This document shows positions 18,106 through 50,186 of a stretch of 64,000 bases of DNA, one piece after another. Under the pieces are notes generated by a model. It ran no database searches. It was not told where the DNA came from and saw nothing but the letters and a program-made list of their open reading frames with translations. The stretch spans positions 1 through 64,000 of the forward strand of contig JAISAO010000024.1 of the NCBI GenBank assembly GCA_031266665.1. Reading direction: 5' to 3'. Source of the stretch: Propionibacteriaceae bacterium (GTDB lineage Bacteria; Actinomycetota; Actinomycetes; Propionibacteriales; Propionibacteriaceae). The stretch's first letter is position 1. Every line of letters begins with the position of its first letter. Made by a program: the position numbers and the translations under genes.

Positions 18106-18954
18106 TCAGGCCAGGGGCAGTTTGGCCGCGTGGTCGGGCACGTACTGGTTCTCCTCCCGGGGCGGGCGGATGTAGCCCCGGCGCTTGGGCCGAGGCGGAA
18201 TGACCACATCGGGCGGCGGCTGGCGGACATAGGGCACGGATTCGAGCAGGTGGTCCATGACGTTGAGGCGGGCCCGCTTCTTGTCCTCGGACTCGACCGT
18301 GAACCAGGGCGCCTCGGGGATGTCGGTGTGGACGAACATCTCGTCCTTGGCCCGGGAGTAGTCCTCCCAGCGGGTGATCGACTCCAGGTCCATGGGCGAC
18401 AGCTTCCAGCGCCGCATCGGGTCGTTCAGCCGGGAGCGGAAGCGTTTCTCCTGCTCGACGTCGGAGACCGAGAACCAGTATTTGCGCAGCATGATGCCGT
18501 CCTCGACCAGCAGGCGCTCGAAGATCGGGGCCTGGTGCAGGAAGCGGCGGTACTCCTCGCGCGAGCAGAAGCCCATGACCTTCTCCACCCCGGCCCGGTT
18601 GTACCAGGAGCGGTCGAAGACCACGATCTCGCCGGCCGTCGGCAGGTGGGTGATGTAGCGCTGGAAATACCACTGCCCTTGTTCCCTGGGCGAGGGCGCG
18701 GGCAGGGCGACGACGCGGCAATAACGCGGGTTGAGGTATTCGGTCAGCCGCTTGATGGCCCCGCCTTTGCCGGCCGCGTCCCGGCCCTCGAAGATCACCA
18801 CCAGGCGTTGCCCGGACTCCTTGATCCACTGCTGCATGTCGACCAGACTGGCTTGCAGCCGGGCCAGTTCGGCCTCATAGACCGCCAGCGGCAACTTGGC
18901 CTTCCCGCCGTTCGCCGCCTTGGCCGGTTGGGAACTCTTCTTCTCCTTGGGCAT
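18106..18954 (-). CDS. ppk2: Polyphosphate kinase 2 (class I type)
   Basis: PPK2 transfers phosphate between polyphosphate and nucleoside diphosphates in the cytosol. The 282-residue product begins MPKEKKSSQPAKAANG, preceded by AGGAG eight bases upstream; longer in-frame starts would add only low-complexity sequence. Motifs: Walker A GRDAAGKGGAIKR, the lid region PSPREQGQWYFQRY, Walker B VVFDRSWYNRAGVE and the C-terminal YVRQPPPDVVIPPRPKRRGY. It stands alone, convergent with cydAB, and interrupts the usual cydABDC arrangement. Confidence 0.92.
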   Translation of the reverse strand: MPKEKKSSQPAKAANGGKAKLPLAVYEAELARLQASLVDMQQWIKESGQRLVVIFEGRDAAGKGGAIKRLTEYLNPRYCRVVALPAPSPREQGQWYFQRYITHLPTAGEIVVFDRSWYNRAGVEKVMGFCSREEYRRFLHQAPIFERLLVEDGIMLRKYWFSVSDVEQEKRFRSRLNDPMRRWKLSPMDLESITRWEDYSRAKDEMFVHTDIPEAPWFTVESEDKKRARLNVMDHLLESVPYVRQPPPDVVIPPRPKRRGYIRPPREENQYVPDHAAKLPLA

Positions 18955-19276
18955 GGGCACTCCTGTGTGCGTCGAGGCCCCGAGGGCCGCTTCCAGGCTG
19001 GACAATACCGCTCCGGGGGTTGGTTTCACACCCCCGGTCGGCGCCTCTATCGGAGCCTTCACGACCGGTCCTCCGCCCACCCGTTCGGCCGCCGCCCGGC
19101 GACCGCCCAGGAGCGACCTGGCCGGACCCCGCCCACGCCCCTCGGGCGGTGGCGGTGGCGGTGTCGGTGGCACCAGGCCAGAGCCCGCCCGGCCCGGCCC
19201 ACCACCAACTGGGCGCGACCCTCGGACGAGGGCCGCCCGGCCACCGCTTGGAGGCTGCGAAGCAACGGAGTGGGGC
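18955..19276. other. Noncoding spacer upstream of ppk2
   Basis: This 320-bp stretch contains low-complexity GGCGGTGGCGGTG and CCCGCCCGG runs and no frame with coding character. It probably holds the ppk2 promoter and the flank of the following repeat array. Confidence 0.5.
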
Positions 19277-19386
19277 TTGCGAATCAACCAGATAAGGTTT
19301 GCGTATCAACGAGGTATGGCTTGCGAATCAACGAGGTTAAGATTGCGCATCAACGAGATAAGGCTTGCGAATCAGCGACTTGAGGC
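19277..19386 (+). repeat. Five-unit 22-bp tandem array upstream of ATPase gene
   Basis: Five units start at 19277, 19299, 19321, 19343 and 19365, exactly 22 bp apart. Each begins TTGCG(A/T/C)ATCA(A/G)C and most continue with (C/G)AG(A/G)T. There are no unique spacers, so this is not a CRISPR array. Twenty-two bp is close to two helical turns, which suits cooperative protein binding. The last unit supplies a TTGCGA -35-like box for the gene at 19399. Confidence 0.9.
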
Positions 19387-19392
19387 TATGAT
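19365..19392 (+). promoter_or_regulatory. Leaderless promoter at the end of the 22-bp array
   Basis: TTGCGA (19365-19370) and TATGAT (19387-19392) are 16 bp apart. The -10 box ends six bases before the GTG at 19399, so transcription should start at or next to the start codon. The -35 box is part of the fifth repeat unit. Confidence 0.6.
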
Positions 19393-19398
19393 GGCGGT

Positions 19399-20688
19399 GT
19401 GGAAGACGGTCTGGCCAGGCACTCCGAGGCAGAGGCGCGAGAGATCCTGGACTTCATGCCCGGTCTGGTCATCGAGGGCGCCCGCCAAGTGGGGAAGAGC
19501 ACGCTGGCCCGCCGCTTGGCGGCGACCGGCGAGGCCGTGATCGTCAACCTGGACGAGCCCCAGACCCGGGCGGCGGCGGCCGAGGATCTAGTCGGCTTCG
19601 TGGCCCAGGCCGGTCCTCGGCTGATGGTCATCGACGAGGCCCAACAGCTGCCCGAGATCACCGTGGCGGTCAAAACAGCCATCGACCGGGACCGCCGGCC
19701 GGGCCGCTTCGTCTTGACCGGCTCGTCCTCGCTGCTGCGGGTGCGCGGACTGGCCGACAGCCTGGCCGGGAGGGTCGGGCGGCTGCAGCTGTACGGCTTC
19801 AGCCAGGGCGAGCTGGCCGGCTCCCGGGACGATTTCGCGACCGCCGTGACGGCCGCCCCAAGCGACCGGTTGATCGCCCAGACCAGTGACCTCGACCGTC
19901 GCGATTACGCCCGGCTGGTGGCCCAGGGGGCCTATCCGCCCGTGCGGGAGGTCTCGGAGCGGCGTCGCCAGCGCTGGTTGGACGACTACCTCCAAGGGCT
20001 GCTGCGGCGCGACCTGCCCGAGCTGCGTCGTTTCTTCAGCTCGGACCGGGCCGGGTCGCTGCTACGCCTATTGGCCGCCAACCAGGCCGGGGAGGTGGTC
20101 AAAGCCCGACTGGCGCAGGAGTCGGAGGTCCCGGCCGCCACCATCTCGGCCTATCTCGACCTGCTGGCCGACGTCTGGCTCTTCGCCGCCGTCCCCACCT
20201 GGACGCCCAACCTGTCCCAGCGGGAGGTGGCCCGCCCCAAGGGCCTCATCTTGGACTCGGGGCTGGCCACCCGCTTGTGCCGGCTGACGGCCTCCCACCT
20301 GGCCAGCCTGGATCACGGCGCGGCCTTCGGCGCCCTGCTAGAGGGCTTCGTGGCCGCCGAACTCCTGCGCCAGCGCACCTGGTCCGCGACCAGTTTCGAC
20401 CTCTTCCACTACCGGGACCGGGCCGGGGCGGAGGTCGACTTGATCCTGGAGCTGGATGGCGGACAGGTCATCGCCGTGGAAGTCAAGGCCGCCACTTCTT
20501 TCCAAGCGGCCCACTTTAAGTCGCTCAAGGTCTTGCGCGACAAGCTGGGCCGCCGCCTGACGGCCGGCATCGTCTTGAACACCGGCGCGGCCGGCTACCG
20601 CTTCTCAGACCGCCTCTACGGGCTTCCCATCAGTGCCCTGTGGCGACTGGGCGCCGACCCGACGGGGCGCGATCCGGCCGCCGATTGA
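19399..20688 (+). CDS. AAA_14/DUF4143 ATPase with 22-bp repeat arrays
   Basis: The 429-residue product has an N-terminal AAA+ domain: Walker A EGARQVGKST (about 22-30), Walker B LMVIDEAQQLPE (about 75-86) and a sensor strand RFVLTGSSS. The C-terminal DUF4143 half includes a winged-helix-like stretch and a PD-(D/E)xK-type core, AEVDLILELDGG with IAVEVKAA (about 347-365). Members are common and mostly uncharacterised; proposed roles include DNA binding or processing. The start is GTG without a Shine-Dalgarno sequence, matching a leaderless transcript. Arrays of 22-bp repeats lie directly upstream and just downstream in the same orientation. The gene sits between cydAB and cydDC. Confidence 0.85.
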   Translation: MEDGLARHSEAEAREILDFMPGLVIEGARQVGKSTLARRLAATGEAVIVNLDEPQTRAAAAEDLVGFVAQAGPRLMVIDEAQQLPEITVAVKTAIDRDRRPGRFVLTGSSSLLRVRGLADSLAGRVGRLQLYGFSQGELAGSRDDFATAVTAAPSDRLIAQTSDLDRRDYARLVAQGAYPPVREVSERRRQRWLDDYLQGLLRRDLPELRRFFSSDRAGSLLRLLAANQAGEVVKARLAQESEVPAATISAYLDLLADVWLFAAVPTWTPNLSQREVARPKGLILDSGLATRLCRLTASHLASLDHGAAFGALLEGFVAAELLRQRTWSATSFDLFHYRDRAGAEVDLILELDGGQVIAVEVKAATSFQAAHFKSLKVLRDKLGRRLTAGIVLNTGAAGYRFSDRLYGLPISALWRLGADPTGRDPAAD

Positions 20689-20734
20689 GCCGGCCCGGCC
20701 CGATCCCGCCGTCGGACGGCCGCTTACCCCCGCC

Positions 20735-20822
20735 CGGCGGATCAACCAGCTAGGCGCTGCGCATCAACCAGCTAGGCGCTGCGCGTCAACCAGATGGAGG
20801 TTGCGAATCAACCAGATGGCGT
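20735..20822 (+). repeat. Second 22-bp array, downstream of ATPase gene
   Basis: Four units with ATCAACCAG or GTCAACCAG at 20741, 20763, 20785 and 20807 keep the 22-bp period and the orientation of the upstream array (unit 4: TTGCGAATCAACCAGATGG). The array ends about 100 bp before cydDC, so it could also act on that gene. Confidence 0.88.
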
Positions 20823-39551: not shown

Positions 39552-41081
39552 CTAGCCGAGTTCGCCGTCCGGCGTCAGTTTGACCGCTAGGAGGTCGAAT
39601 TGGCCGTCACTGGGCGGGAGGTCGCCGTCGGTGGAGTTGGTGCTGCCGGCAGCCAGAAGGCCGCCGTCGGCGGCGATGGCCAAGGCGTGGAATGAGTCCC
39701 AGCCGGTGCCTCCGTGGTTCTGGGCCCAGACGGCTGTGCCGTCCGGGGTGATCTCGGCCACCAGGGCGTTGGGCAGGCTGCGGCCGTCGGCCTGGCCGGT
39801 GTAGCCGGCGGTGAAGATGCGGCCGTTGTCGGTGACGGCCACGGCCGCGAACCAATCATTGTCTGTGCTGCCGTAAGACTGGGCCCACCTAAGGGTGCCG
39901 TCCGGGGCGATCTTGGCCAACAGGGCGTCGCCCCCGCCGTGGTTGATGGCGATGTCGCCGTCGGCGGAATCGGTGCTGCCAGCGGCCAGGATGTCGCCGT
40001 CGGCGGCCATGGCCAAGGCGGTGAAGGCGTCGTCACCGCTGCCGCCGTAGGCCTGGGCCCACCTCAGGGAGCCGTCCGGGGCCACCTTCAACAACAGGGC
40101 GTCCGACTGGCCTGGGTCGGCGGTGCCGTCGCCGTCGGCTGAGCGGGTGGCGCCGGCGGCGTAGATGTCACCGTCGGCGGCCATGGCCAAAGCGGTGAAC
40201 GAATCGCCTCCGTCGCCGCTGTGGGTCTGGGACCACAGGAAGGCGCCGTCCGGGGCGAACTTGGCCAGTAGGCCGTAGTGGTGGTCCGGGTCGACGGTGG
40301 TGTAGCCGTCGGCGGAGTTGGTGTCCCCGGCTACCCAGACGCTGCCGTCGGCGGCCACTGCCACGGCCTCGAACGAACTCCGGCCGGCGCTGCCGTAGGC
40401 CTGGATCCACGAGAAGACGCCGTCCGGGGCGAGCTTGGCCACTAGGGCAGAGGTGGTGTCGCCGTCGGCCAGGTAGCCGGCGACCACGATGTCGCCGTCG
40501 GCGGTGACGGCCAGGGCCTCGAACGAGTCCCAGCCCTCCCCGCCGTAGACCTGGGTCCACAGCAGCCTGCCGTCCGGGGCCAGCTTGGTCAGCAGGGCGT
40601 CCCGGCCGCCCTGATTGTCGGTGATGTCGCCGTCGGCGGAGTCGGTGTCGCCGGCGGCTAGGACGCCGCCATCGGCGGCCACGGCCACGGCGTAGAAGCG
40701 GTCCTCGCCGGCGCCGCCATAGGTCCTGGCCCAGCTCGACGGGGCCAGCGGGGGAGTAGCGGTGTTTTGGCCGGGGAGCGGTGTCGGCGGCAGAACAGCC
40801 GTGGGCACCGAGCCGGTCGGGTCGTCGGCGGGCCTGTTCTGGGACTTCAGCCACCACCAGGCCAGCGTCGAGACCAGGGCCAGAGCCACGACGACGCTCA
40901 GAGCGATGACGACCGGTCGGGTCACGCGGCTGGCGGGTGGGGCGGGGACGGCTGGCCTGTCAGCGGCGGGCGTGGCTGTGGGCTGGGCGGCTGGCCAGTT
41001 CTGGTACTGGGAGATGGCCGGGTCGAGGTTCGGACTGGCTTCGGGGCGGCCGTGGTCCGGGGGGCCGTCGTGATCGGTCAT
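39552..41081 (-). CDS. Membrane-anchored SBBP-repeat beta-propeller protein (copy 1)
   Basis: The product is 509 residues: a disordered N-terminus (1-55), one helix (about 57-76, VIALSVVVALALVSTLAWWW), then about eight repeats of 48-55 residues with the consensus SF-ALA-AADG-(I/L)-AAG-T-SADGDIT-GG-DALL-K-APDG-L-W-Q-YGG. This is the SBBP/beta-propeller repeat, which should fold as an extracellular propeller with a binding role. The end is LTPDGELG followed by TAG. The leader (GGCGGAATGACATG) matches that of the paralogue at 43513-45027. Confidence 0.82.
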   Translation of the reverse strand: MTDHDGPPDHGRPEASPNLDPAISQYQNWPAAQPTATPAADRPAVPAPPASRVTRPVVIALSVVVALALVSTLAWWWLKSQNRPADDPTGSVPTAVLPPTPLPGQNTATPPLAPSSWARTYGGAGEDRFYAVAVAADGGVLAAGDTDSADGDITDNQGGRDALLTKLAPDGRLLWTQVYGGEGWDSFEALAVTADGDIVVAGYLADGDTTSALVAKLAPDGVFSWIQAYGSAGRSSFEAVAVAADGSVWVAGDTNSADGYTTVDPDHHYGLLAKFAPDGAFLWSQTHSGDGGDSFTALAMAADGDIYAAGATRSADGDGTADPGQSDALLLKVAPDGSLRWAQAYGGSGDDAFTALAMAADGDILAAGSTDSADGDIAINHGGGDALLAKIAPDGTLRWAQSYGSTDNDWFAAVAVTDNGRIFTAGYTGQADGRSLPNALVAEITPDGTAVWAQNHGGTGWDSFHALAIAADGGLLAAGSTNSTDGDLPPSDGQFDLLAVKLTPDGELG

Positions 41082-41249
41082 GTCATTCCGCCTGTCGGGT
41101 TCTTTCGAGACACCTGGTCATTATGGTTGGGGGTGTCGCGCCGTTCCGGACGGGTCGCGGCGCCATTCGGCCGCTTCTCCCGCTTGGCCGCTTCCGCCCG
41201 ACCCCTAAACAAACTTAACAGGTACTTACCAGGTTACTGCTAAGCTCAC

Positions 41250-41290
41250 CGGCTGAGTTACCTGTTGAGTTACCTGTTGAGTTAGGAGTT
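41250..41290 (+). repeat. 12-bp tandem repeats before AlbA_2 remnant
   Basis: GAGTTACCTGTT is repeated (near 41255, 41267 and, partly, 41279), ending in GAGTTAGGAG, the ribosome-binding site of the frame at 41295. An inverse-like TTACCAGGTTAC lies just upstream (41226-41237). This may be an operator array for the regulator that follows. Confidence 0.55.
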
Positions 41291-43516: not shown

Positions 43517-45027
43517 CCGAGTTCGCCATTTGGTGTCAGTTTGACCACTGAGAGGTCGGCCAGGCTGCGGACGAGCGGAGGGTCGCTGTTGGCGGAGTTG
43601 GTGTATCCGGCGGCCAAGAGGCCGCCGTCGGCGGCGATGGCCAAGGCGCTGAACGAATCGCCGTCGGCGCCGCCGTGGGTTCGGGCCCAGACAAGGGTGC
43701 CGTCGGGGGCGGTCTTGGCCAGTAGGGCGTCGTCGTCGCCGTGGCTGGGCGGGAGGTCGCCGTCGGTGGACCCGGTGTATCCGGCGGCCAGGATGTCGCC
43801 GTCGGCGGCGATGACCAAGGTGTTGAAGCTGTCCCAGTCCGTGCCTCCGTGGGTTTGGGCCCACAGGAGGGTGCCGTCGGGGGCGGTCTTGACCAGTAGG
43901 GCGTCCCAGCCGCCGCGGTTGGTGGTGATATCGCCGTCATCGGACTCGGTGTATCCGGCGGCCAGGATGTCCCCGTCGTCGGCGACGGCCAGGTCGTTGA
44001 AGGTGTCTCGGCTCGTGCCGCCGTAGGTTCGAGTCCACCTGAGGGCGCCGTCCGGGGCGATCTTGGCCAGCAGTGCGTCCTCGTCACCTCGGTTGGTGGT
44101 GATGTCGCCGTCATCGGACTCGGTGTATCCGGCGGCCAGGATGTCGCCGTCGTCGGCGACGGCCAGGGCGTTGAACTTGTCGTCGTTGGTGCCGCCGTAA
44201 GTTCGGGTCCAGATGATGTCGCCGTCGGGGGCGATTTTGGCCAGTAGGGCGTCGGACCAGCCGCCGTGGCTGGTGGTGATGTCACCGGCGATGGAGTTGG
44301 TGTCTCCAGCGGCGAGGACGCTGCCATCGTCGGCCAAAGCCACGGCGCTGAACGTTTCGCCGCTGGCACCGCCGTAGGCCCGGGCCCAGACAAGGGTGCC
44401 GTCGGGAGCGATTTTGGCCAGTAAGGCATCGCCCCACCAGATGCCGTTTTTACTGGTGATGATGTCGCCGTCGGTGGAGAGGGTGTATCCGGCGGCGAAG
44501 AGGCTGCCGTCGGCGGCGATGGCCAGGGCGTTGAACGTGTCGTAGTTGGTGCCGCCGTAGGCCCGGGCCCAGATGAGGGTGCCGTCGGGGGCGATTTTGG
44601 CCAGGAGGGCGTCTCGGTCGCCTCGGTTGGTGGTGATGTCGCCGTCGGTGGACCCGGTGTATCCGGCGGCGAAGATACTGCCGTCGGCGGCGACTGTCAG
44701 GTCGAAGAATTTGTCATCGTCTTGGCCGCCGTAGGCTTTGGCCCAGGTCGATGTGGGGAGGACGGTCGTGGGCGCTGCGGCGGTCGAGGGGGTCGGGTCG
44801 TTGGTGGGTTCGTCCCGGGATTTGAGCAATAGCCACATGAGAGTCACGGCCAGGACCGGGATGATTAGAGAGGGGACGTTTGACAGAAGCACGCCCTTGG
44901 CGGGTCTGGCGGGCGGGGGCGTGGGGGGCTGGGCGGTTGGCCAGCTTTGATTCTGAGGGTGGGCCGTGCCGGAGTGCTGGTGGGGTTCGGGGCGGTCGTG
45001 GTTCGTGGGACTGTAGTGATCAGTCAT
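43513..45027 (-). CDS. Membrane-anchored SBBP-repeat beta-propeller protein (copy 2)
   Basis: The 504-residue paralogue of the 39.5-kb gene has the same plan: disordered N-terminus, one helix (about 45-65, VPSLIIPVLAVTLMWLLL) and about eight SBBP repeats (ADDGDILAAGYTESDDGDIT..., APDGTLVWARAYGG). The repeats are more alike here than in copy 1, indicating recent internal homogenisation. The leader (AAAGGCGGGATGATATG) matches copy 1. The TAG stop lies in the terminal CTAG of the adjacent 163-bp element. Probably an extracellular binding or scaffolding protein. Confidence 0.82.
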   Translation of the reverse strand: MTDHYSPTNHDRPEPHQHSGTAHPQNQSWPTAQPPTPPPARPAKGVLLSNVPSLIIPVLAVTLMWLLLKSRDEPTNDPTPSTAAAPTTVLPTSTWAKAYGGQDDDKFFDLTVAADGSIFAAGYTGSTDGDITTNRGDRDALLAKIAPDGTLIWARAYGGTNYDTFNALAIAADGSLFAAGYTLSTDGDIITSKNGIWWGDALLAKIAPDGTLVWARAYGGASGETFSAVALADDGSVLAAGDTNSIAGDITTSHGGWSDALLAKIAPDGDIIWTRTYGGTNDDKFNALAVADDGDILAAGYTESDDGDITTNRGDEDALLAKIAPDGALRWTRTYGGTSRDTFNDLAVADDGDILAAGYTESDDGDITTNRGGWDALLVKTAPDGTLLWAQTHGGTDWDSFNTLVIAADGDILAAGYTGSTDGDLPPSHGDDDALLAKTAPDGTLVWARTHGGADGDSFSALAIAADGGLLAAGYTNSANSDPPLVRSLADLSVVKLTPNGELG

Positions 45028-48609: not shown

Positions 48610-48779
48610 TTGTGGGCGCCGCGTCGTCTCGGACTGGCCGTGGCGCCCGGTCAGGCGGCGGACAGGTGGCCGAGGGCGATGACGTTGATCTGGTCGGGCC
48701 GGGTGTAGCTCTCGTTGCCGGCGGTGAGGACGTTCAACGAGCAGAGCTGGTCGGCCCGTTGGGCGGAGACTTTGCCGGC
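48610..48779. repeat. 170-bp direct repeat, right copy
   Basis: This copy lies in the 3' end of the intact DUF4143 ATPase gene and its flank, and matches 45079-45248 in the same orientation. Confidence 0.85.
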
Positions 48780-49928
48780 CAGTCGGCGCAGGTTGGCGGC
48801 GGCGGCCTCCAGGTTGGCGGCGCCGCCGAGTTTCACCTCGAAGGCGGCCCAGCGACCGTCGCCCAGTTCCACCACGGCGTCGACCTCGAGCCCCGAGTCG
48901 TCACGATAGTGGTAGACAGCGCCGGCCAGAGCTTGGGCGTAGATCCGCAGGTCGCGGACGGCCAGGGACTCGAACAGCAGTCCGAAGGTGTTCAAGTCCT
49001 CCAGTAGCGCCTGCGGGCGGGCGCGCAGGGCCGCCGCCGCCAGCGACGGGTCGACGAAGTGCCATTTGGGGCGCACCCGCAGCCGGACCTTCGACCGGAG
49101 GTGTGGCGCCCAGGCGGGCTGCTCCTCCAGCACGAACACCCTGGTGAGGGCGTCGAGGTATTTCCGGACCGTCTGGGCCGAGACCGCCACCGCAGTCGTT
49201 CCAGTAAGCGGGATGTCGGCCTCCAAGGCGAGCCGGTTGGCGCTGGCCTCGGTGGCGGTGTGGCGGGCCAGCGCCCGCTGCAGCGCCCCCACCCGGACCG
49301 GATCGGCGCTCAGCCCGGCCCAGCGCAGATCCGCCCGGGCGATGTCGTCCAGATAGGCCGCCAGATACTCCGTCGGCGAGCGCGAGGGCTGCGCCACCAG
49401 GGCGGGCCAGCCGCCCCGCACGACCAGTTCGGCGTAGTCCTCCACGGTCGGCCCGCCCAGGCCGGCGACGACGGACCGGGCGCCCGGGCCGTCCAGCAGG
49501 GCGACGAAGCTGACTTGGCGGTTACTGTCGCCGCTCTCGTGCAAAGACATGGGACGCAGCGTCACCCGGCGGAAGCGCCCCGCCCCGCTGTGACGGGTGA
49601 TGTCGTCCGTCGGCGTGGCCGAACCGGTGAGAATGAACTGCCCGGCCAGGCCCCGGGCGTCCACCTCGTGGCGCACGGCGTTCCACAAGGTGGGGGCGAG
49701 TTGCCACTCGTCTATCAGCCGGGGGGCGGGGCCGTCCAAGAGCCGGGCGGGCGACAGCTCCGCCAGGGTCGCCAGGTTGGGTGAGGCGTCCAAACGCACC
49801 GCGCTGGCGGCCAGCTGTAGTCCGGAGGTCGTCTTGCCGACGGCGCGAGGGCCTTGGACGATGACCGCGCCGAAGGTGCCCAAGGCGTTGCGGACGAGAT
49901 CGTCCGCCAGGCGGGGTCGGTAAGACAC
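48651..49928 (-). CDS. AAA_14/DUF4143 ATPase with 23-bp repeat array
   Basis: The 425-residue product has Walker A QGPRAVGKTT (about 24-33), a Walker B variant APRLIDEWQLAP, sensor QFILTGSATP and a DUF4143 C-half with a PD-(D/E)xK-like core (SGLEVDAVVELGDG, WAAFEVKLGG, about 345-368). It is a distant paralogue of the ATPase at 19399-20688. It starts with GTG and no Shine-Dalgarno; TACTAT ends six bases before it (49940-49935), predicting a leaderless mRNA. Three 23-bp repeats lie directly upstream. Mobile or selfish behaviour is suggested by the 3' remnant copy at 45120. Confidence 0.85.
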   Translation of the reverse strand: MSYRPRLADDLVRNALGTFGAVIVQGPRAVGKTTSGLQLAASAVRLDASPNLATLAELSPARLLDGPAPRLIDEWQLAPTLWNAVRHEVDARGLAGQFILTGSATPTDDITRHSGAGRFRRVTLRPMSLHESGDSNRQVSFVALLDGPGARSVVAGLGGPTVEDYAELVVRGGWPALVAQPSRSPTEYLAAYLDDIARADLRWAGLSADPVRVGALQRALARHTATEASANRLALEADIPLTGTTAVAVSAQTVRKYLDALTRVFVLEEQPAWAPHLRSKVRLRVRPKWHFVDPSLAAAALRARPQALLEDLNTFGLLFESLAVRDLRIYAQALAGAVYHYRDDSGLEVDAVVELGDGRWAAFEVKLGGAANLEAAAANLRRLAGKVSAQRADQLCSLNVLTAGNESYTRPDQINVIALGHLSAA

Positions 49929-49929
49929 G

Positions 49930-49998
49930 AGGCTATAGTATCACGTTTGCGTCATGGGGACTATCACGTTTGCGCTCGGATAAGTATTGCGTTTGCGC
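49930..49998 (-). repeat. Three-unit 23-bp tandem array upstream of second ATPase
   Basis: Read with the gene, units at 49998-49976, 49975-49953 and 49952-49930 are exactly 23 bp and start (G/A)CGCAAACG(T/C)(G/A)ATA. The third contains the TACTAT -10 box. The core AACGtGATA resembles AACGaGATA in units of the 22-bp array at 19.3 kb. 49999-50186 shows no gene. Confidence 0.88.
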
Positions 49999-50186
49999 TA
50001 GAGGTTGACCGGGCAGGGCACGGCCTCGGGCGAGCTGTTCAGGGAAGGAAATTCCCGCCAATCCCGAAGGGGACGGCGGGGCGGAATGCGCCACTGTGTA
50101 GCGCGCCGGCAGCGCCACACGGCTTCCAGTGGCGGCGGAGAAGATCAGACGGAAGCGGCGGCGTGGTCGCCAGGGGGTGGAGGCGT

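Follow-up and report, generated by a model that had tools for sequence, protein, structure and literature searches.

Private direct-repeat arrays at leaderless promoters of DUF4143 ATPase-nuclease genes, and their probable recognition by the encoded proteins

Do the 22-bp repeats that lie on both sides of a DUF4143 ATPase gene belong to that gene, and does the encoded protein recognize them? This question is raised by a locus in the draft genome of a Propionibacteriaceae bacterium (GCA_031266665.1). The locus lies in a stretch of 64,000 nucleotides, which we call the window (contig JAISAO010000024.1, positions 1 to 64,000; coordinates are those of the window, and + or - gives the strand). The gene (19399..20688, +) begins with GTG and encodes 429 amino acids. 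A sequence-only reading had described five 22-bp units before the gene, a TATGAT six bases before the GTG, and, after the gene, four further units that point the same way. We found all of these at the places claimed.

The upstream array (19275..19384, +) consists of five 22-bp units whose core, TTGCGNATCAACGA, has exact copies at this locus only. The TTGCG of these units is at 19277, 19299, 19321, 19343, and 19365, and the unit list of our self-lag scan also includes a degenerate outermost unit (19253..19274, +). The downstream array (about 20735..20822, +) has four 22-bp units. Tandem Repeats Finder reports a period of 22 for both arrays, with scores of 133 and 102. In the self-lag scan, the upstream array scores 57, and none of 100 shuffles scores above 10. 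The upstream units had been called exact in period. This holds for their spacing but not for their sequences, as the last unit has CAGCGA in place of CAACGA. The units run head to tail with a period of 22 and with no spacers between them, as had been claimed, which rules out a CRISPR array. We also rejected an iteron replication origin, as the product matches AAA_14 and DUF4143 and does not match any Rep family in Pfam.

The TATGAT (19387..19392, +) would be the -10 box, 6 nt before the start codon at 19399. The TTGCGA of the last unit (19365..19370, +) falls where a -35 element would be, with 16 bp between it and the -10 box. From this layout, we predict that transcription starts at 19399, so that the transcript would be leaderless. 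By eye, the downstream array is not followed by a TANNNT at promoter distance. It may be a duplicate or a decoy.

The protein has clear matches to two Pfam profiles, PF13635 (119.8 bits, with a cut-off of 28.1) and PF13173 (90 bits, with a cut-off of 27). It also matches PADLOC's model for PDC-S01 (PDLC04790) at 475.8 bits, with residues 1-416 covered. An alignment of family proteins identifies what we take to be a Walker A motif (GARQVGKST, residues 27-35; 19477..19503, +) and, in the C-terminal half, what we take to be a PD-(D/E)xK nuclease motif (residues 339-363, including R339, E345, D347, E361, and K363; 20413..20487, +). Across 16 aligned proteins, K33, D79, E345, D347, and K363 are invariant and E361 is nearly so. 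More broadly, G27, G32, and K33 are each present in all 335 full-length genes, as are the ATPase residues K33 and D79 (335/335), and the nuclease residues D347, [EDQ]361, and K363 are kept in 327 of the 335. Between these regions, the predicted secondary structure has a putative winged-helix domain (residues 215-284; 20041..20250, +). Its predicted recognition helix comprises residues 246-258 (20134..20172, +), and the predicted structure also places the start of this helix at residue 246. The window protein has an AAA+ plus winged-helix fold of the STAND or archaeal AAA+ ATPase type. The alignment to the archaeal AAA+ ATPases PABY2304 (2qen) and SSO1545 (2fna) ends near residue 295, so the C-terminal nuclease domain is outside the aligned range.

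If the array belongs to the gene, then it should recur with homologs. We collected homologs from relatives, from the order, the class, the phylum, and two further orders, from viral contigs, and from 12 plasmid loci. We also used a collection of 84,980 species genomes, from which the best 80 of at least 286 relatives were kept. After dropping 24 loci that were fetched for other questions or fetched twice, 387 loci gave 383 distinct genes. Another 17 of these lacked the N-terminus or enough upstream sequence, which left 366 genes. We called an array if the best self-lag was 22 or 23 with a score of at least 12, with all lags from 12 to 40 free to win. By this rule, 260 of the 366 homologs have a head-to-tail array just before the start codon (22 bp in 77 genes and 23 bp in 183), in a sample that is skewed towards proteins that resemble the window protein. 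A stricter score of at least 15 retains 231 of 366. Across the family, the arrays have about 2 to 7 asymmetric units. Arrays are rare in controls: we found one at 1 of 174 neighboring genes and in 3 of 585 random segments of the window, and among 359 segments of the sampled loci, none had a lag of 22 or 23 at a score of at least 15 (9 did at any lag). The sequence-only reading would have been undermined by homologs that regularly lack an array, which is not what this sample contains.

Among genes drawn from the phylum by PF13635, 7 of the 21 that could be analyzed have a 22- or 23-bp array at a score of at least 12 (ten more were skipped because of their N-terminus). Outside of the Actinomycetota, 17 of 32 genes have an array. 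Five of the 12 plasmid loci have a 22- or 23-bp lag at a score of at least 14, namely those from Phyllobacterium, Sulfitobacter, Lentilactobacillus, Ruminococcus albus, and Bacteroides uniformis; among the other seven, the period is 32 bp in the locus from Treponema, the signal is weak in two, and four show no array. Family matches occur in 379 of 72,556 plasmid records and in 8 of 50,697 phage records. We discarded a viral role: four loci were in the viral contigs, and none of the three that were analyzed has an array at the threshold.

The 106 genes without a 22- or 23-bp array at the threshold include 19 with a long inverted repeat, 9 with a period of 32 or 33, and 39 with a weak lag of 22 or 23, and these sets may overlap. 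For instance, seven loci (L009, L019, L027, L065, L095, L100, and L103) have no direct-repeat array and instead have one long inverted repeat, with 16-19 matched pairs, within about 140 bp of the start. These homologs indicate that operators in the family come in two or more geometries. Eight loci, including Treponema (L110-L113, L120, L123, L232, and L411), have a period of 32-33 bp, or three helical turns, and some of these have an inverted repeat too. With all types taken together, the operator tracks the protein tree (82 changes, compared with a mean of 154.9 after shuffling). The idea that the inverted-repeat operators form one clade was rejected, as they are not clustered on the tree (13 changes, with 78 of 500 shuffles as low).

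The promoter at the end of the array is also a trait of the family rather than of the window gene alone. For 147 genes whose units are of the window's class, TANNNT is most frequent 21-25 nt downstream of the base that opens the last unit (13, 9, 14, 11, and 6 genes at the successive positions, with about 1.2 expected at each), with a lower rise at 32-35 nt. Overall, 181 of 274 arrays have a TANNNT near their end, compared with 108 for shuffled sequences. In 135 of these 181 genes, an in-frame start codon follows the -10 at a distance of exactly 6 nt (94 genes) or 7 nt (41 genes). With the distance relaxed to 5-12 nt, there are 164 starts in frame and 10 in each of the other frames. The 6-7 nt rule is obeyed by 212 of the 366 genes, and 159 of these 212 have an array. 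In an earlier set of 280 genes, 179 obeyed the rule, compared with 13 and 7 for the other two frames, and the rule also held in 44 of the 88 genes of that set that lacked an array. In a somewhat different scan of neighboring genes, it held in 12 of 174. Shine-Dalgarno-like words are present in just 12 of 159 genes. Judging by this layout, a gene of this family is leaderless, with the last unit in place of the -35 region, and the array thus overlaps the gene's own promoter.

It had also been proposed that the final unit provides the -35 box. The spacing of TTGCGA in the window fits this, but the family as a whole does not have a clear TTGACA: the mean best match is 2.62 at spacers of 16-18, versus 2.22 and 2.39 at control spacers. 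Instead, these promoters have an extended -10: at the TGn position, two bases upstream of the -10, 65% of 159 genes have G.

Although the layout is shared, the sequence of the unit is private to each gene. In the draft genome (3.28 Mb in 106 contigs), the window core TGCGNATCAACNAG has 6 exact matches, and all of them are at this locus, 4 before the gene and 2 after it. If one mismatch is allowed, there are 9 more matches, of which 2 are at the locus and 7 are scattered; a reversed control pattern has 13 matches. Units at two other contigs of the same genome behave similarly. The unit at contig C41 has 4 exact matches, all at its own locus, and one two-mismatch match elsewhere. The unit at contig C42 has 7 exact matches, all at its own locus, and 10 one-mismatch matches, of which 6 are elsewhere. 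With a unit that is peculiar to each gene, looking elsewhere for the repeat of this locus would miss the system.

The same genome contains 21 matches to the window protein and 26 to PF13635, and the matches to the window protein are dispersed across many contigs. At 17 of the 21 loci, the best self-lag before the gene is 22 or 23 with a score of at least 13, and every unit is different; by our usual rule, 16 of the 19 copies that were analyzed have a 22- or 23-bp array. A second one of these modules lies in the window. Its gene (48651..49928, -; we derived the end by hand from the open frame) has a GTG that is 6 nt after a TACTAT. Its array (49931..49999, -) consists of three 23-bp units with the core AGCGCAAACGTGATA and overlaps this -10 (49935-49940). 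The unit differs from that of the first module, and the layout of the leaderless promoter is identical. The genome also contains partial DUF4143 matches at G000:C88:87094-87366 (L021), G000:C33:4945-5313 (L010), and G000:C48:8513-8905 (L017, at a contig end), and the sequence ahead of the L021 fragment still shows 23-bp copies that look like units. This suggests that the partial matches are decayed or truncated modules.

Private units do share some features. Of 205 units, 92 fall in the class gCgGCaAATC.gCgA, which includes the window unit, and most units share a common register. The fit of a single motif to 149 genes drops from 619 to 362 when unit positions are shuffled. Also, among 74 genes from the genus and its near relatives, those with higher protein identity have more similar units when the units are read along the gene strand (Spearman 0.31), and there is no such trend for the reverse complement (-0.06).

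If each protein reads its own unit, then residues that contact DNA should vary together with bases in the unit. In the predicted recognition helix, residue 246 covaries with position 10 of the unit, residue 247 with position 12, and residue 251 with position 13. For instance, G at position 10 accompanies arginine or lysine at residue 246 in 51 of 63 genes and other residues in 25 of 107. We ran independent contrasts on a tree that was built without residues 236-260. In phylogenetically independent pairs, the predicted combination outnumbers the opposite by 8.7 to 0.6 for residue 246 and base 10 (median p = 0.012), by 8.7 to 0.0 for residue 247 and base 12 (median p = 0.004), and by 6.0 to 0.1 for residue 251 and base 13 (median p = 0.031). 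These three residues each rank first, out of 145, 64, and 136 residues, and the three unit positions each rank first out of 61 choices of position and base. Of the 192 genes in the contrasts, 85 belong to the training set from which the pairs first emerged. The contrasts are therefore not independent of that discovery, and they test for relatedness rather than for discovery bias. A further pairing, of an acidic or amide residue at 246 with C or T at position 10, gave 6.6 to 0.9 (p = 0.07), and acidic residues alone gave 2.8 to 1.0 (p = 0.63).

In a strict hold-out of 13 genes, one of four predictions, R251 with C13, was significant (p = 0.027) and the other three were not. When unit classes 0 and 1 are taken separately, the helix pairs are present and the top pairs are outside the helix; in class 1 alone, the best helix pairs are at different unit positions. 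In a scan of all 7,443 pairs by stratified mutual information, residue 247 with position 11 was marginal: its z of 7.9 lies between the 95% point (7.1) and the highest (10.6) of the maxima obtained by permutation. Two unrelated pairs (354 with 3 and 126 with 3) also exceed the 95% point, and 246 with 10 does not. Disjoint sister pairs within the training set were not decisive (247 with 11 ranked 17 of 4,524 tests). A partial Mantel comparison of segments of the protein with unit similarity reached a best r of 0.126, which is below the 95% point of the permutation null (0.20).

Taken with the presence of the array in 260 of 366 homologs, the covariation of helix residues with unit bases argues strongly, if indirectly, that the array before each gene is read by the ATPase which that gene encodes. 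The gene and the array do belong together, and the proposal that the protein recognizes its own repeats is very probable on these comparative data. The arrays are at promoters, where any regulator could act, so we also considered that another, host-encoded regulator reads the array and that the ATPase is merely its target gene. Since the units of paralogs within one genome differ, a single regulator could hardly read them all, and it is the helix of the encoded protein that covaries with the unit. We view a host regulator as highly improbable.

We propose that every gene of this kind makes up a self-contained module. It encodes an AAA+ ATPase that also has a winged helix and a PD-(D/E)xK domain, and ahead of it lies an array of asymmetric sites that belongs to it alone. 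The sites are about two helical turns apart, and several protomers may load cooperatively on them, all in one orientation. The recognition helix of the winged-helix domain would read the array, and the protein would thereby control its own leaderless, extended -10 promoter. As the last site occupies the -35 region, binding would probably repress transcription. The private operators would let many paralogs share a genome without cross-control, and they would suit modules, whether defensive or selfish, that repress themselves and are mobile as a single gene. Overall, we think it probable that these modules are single-gene, leaderless, autoregulated ATPase-nucleases with diversified private operators.

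The sign of the regulation might be the reverse, with the ATPase on the last unit recruiting RNA polymerase. This positive autoregulation is compatible with the binding that we propose, and it could account for the weak match to TTGACA (2.62 versus 2.22 and 2.39) and for the placement of the last unit over the -35 region. However, an extended -10, such as these promoters have, can work without a -35, and the last site would then block the polymerase, so repression is likelier than activation. Also, a nuclease under positive feedback would be hard to keep silent. We give activation some weight and consider it doubtful.

The controller proteins of restriction-modification systems and antitoxin repressors are familiar examples of small, mobile modules that regulate themselves through private operators at their promoters. 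The modules described here would be alike in having such operators. They differ in that the presumed regulator is the ATPase-nuclease itself, encoded by one gene, and in that the operator is a direct-repeat array of asymmetric units. Plasmid iterons are direct repeats with a period of about two helical turns, and the protein that they bind is encoded next to them. The window's array resembles them in the spacing of the repeats and in its position beside the gene. In contrast to iterons, the product does not match Rep in Pfam, and copies of the module are scattered across many contigs of the draft genome.

The conservation of the ATPase and nuclease residues in nearly all genes goes beyond what a plain repressor needs. 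This raises the possibility that the ATPase loads at the array and then acts on DNA that carries it, either to mark its own DNA or to exclude similar incoming copies. The presence of several paralogs with different units in one genome fits this, and the idea is compatible with autoregulation. On the other hand, the nuclease would also attack the array of its own gene, unless it is restrained when bound there. Also, similar units are not significantly avoided within a genome: 0 of 256 same-genome pairs match at 12 or more of 15 positions, as do 15 of 2,594 pairs between genomes (p = 0.25). We consider self-recognition by the nuclease to be unlikely. A broader version is that these self-recognizing ATPase-nucleases form a pan-bacterial family that behaves as immunity groups do, in which the private array silences each copy and marks its own DNA as self, and incoming DNA with the same array is acted on. 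If so, then only copies with a new specificity could settle beside the residents, and the helix and the array would diversify together. This seems quite unlikely to us.

The protein family is already known. PDC-S01 is described as an ATPase domain fused to a PD-(D/E)xK superfamily domain, and it was ranked as the fourth most common prokaryotic defense system, with 9,986 detections in archaea and 29,494 in bacteria (PMC12988326). Validation is pending for most such PDC candidates (PMC12988326). Defense is a candidate role of the family, assigned by a catalog. The window protein matches the PDC-S01 model, and the accessible portion of that paper does not offer a mechanism or mention an operator array, a leaderless promoter, or DNA specificity (PMC12988326). 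In the accessible portion of another study, the DUF4143 gene TT_P0211 has a fold change of 6.6 in cells with plasmid (PMC4406477). We found no report of the arrays or the promoter of DUF4143 or PDC-S01 genes in the literature that we searched, which excludes preprints and most subscription journals, so these features appear to be undescribed there. A private array with a leaderless promoter and a recognition code would be the first concrete handle on this family: on the DNA that is bound, on its probable control, and on how many copies coexist. The putative code (residue 246 with base 10, 247 with base 12, and 251 with base 13) makes the specificity directly testable, and it would offer a natural set of orthogonal regulators.

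Finally, we asked if the module is a fixed part of its neighborhood. The neighbors are, by eye, what we take to be cydA, cydB, cydDC, and ppk2. The window-type gene is absent from all 19 other cydD stretches of the genus (cydB is also visible in 13 of these 19 and not in the other six). The homologs with 65% and 52% identity sit elsewhere. The stretches around them, of 12 kb and 10 kb, lack matches to these neighbors, and each homolog has a 22-bp array. Together, these observations imply that the gene and its array behave as a separate accessory unit. They would also fit arrays that are the ends of a mobile element or substrates for recombination, with array, gene, and array inserted or excised as a unit, especially as direct-orientation arrays frame the gene both in the window and at contig C42. 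Framing by two arrays is not characteristic of the family, contrary to the emphasis of the sequence-only reading: a second full array of the gene's own unit is found for only 2 of 248 genes, which are these two from the same genome, and any copy of the gene's own unit is found in the flanks of 8 of 248. Moreover, a fixed spacing ties the upstream array to the promoter, which the ends of an element would not need. We consider element ends to be very unlikely.

The ppk2-like gene (18106-18954, -) lies with the ATPase between cydB and cydDC. The other 19 cydD stretches from the genus, none of which extends more than 1.5 kb upstream, gave no match to it. The window also contains other repeats. There are two tandem arrays with a 174-bp period (39897-40446 and 43582-44746), which are perhaps coding repeats, and at 41213-41284, short tandem repeats of ACTTAACAGGT and TGAGTTACCTGT are close together.
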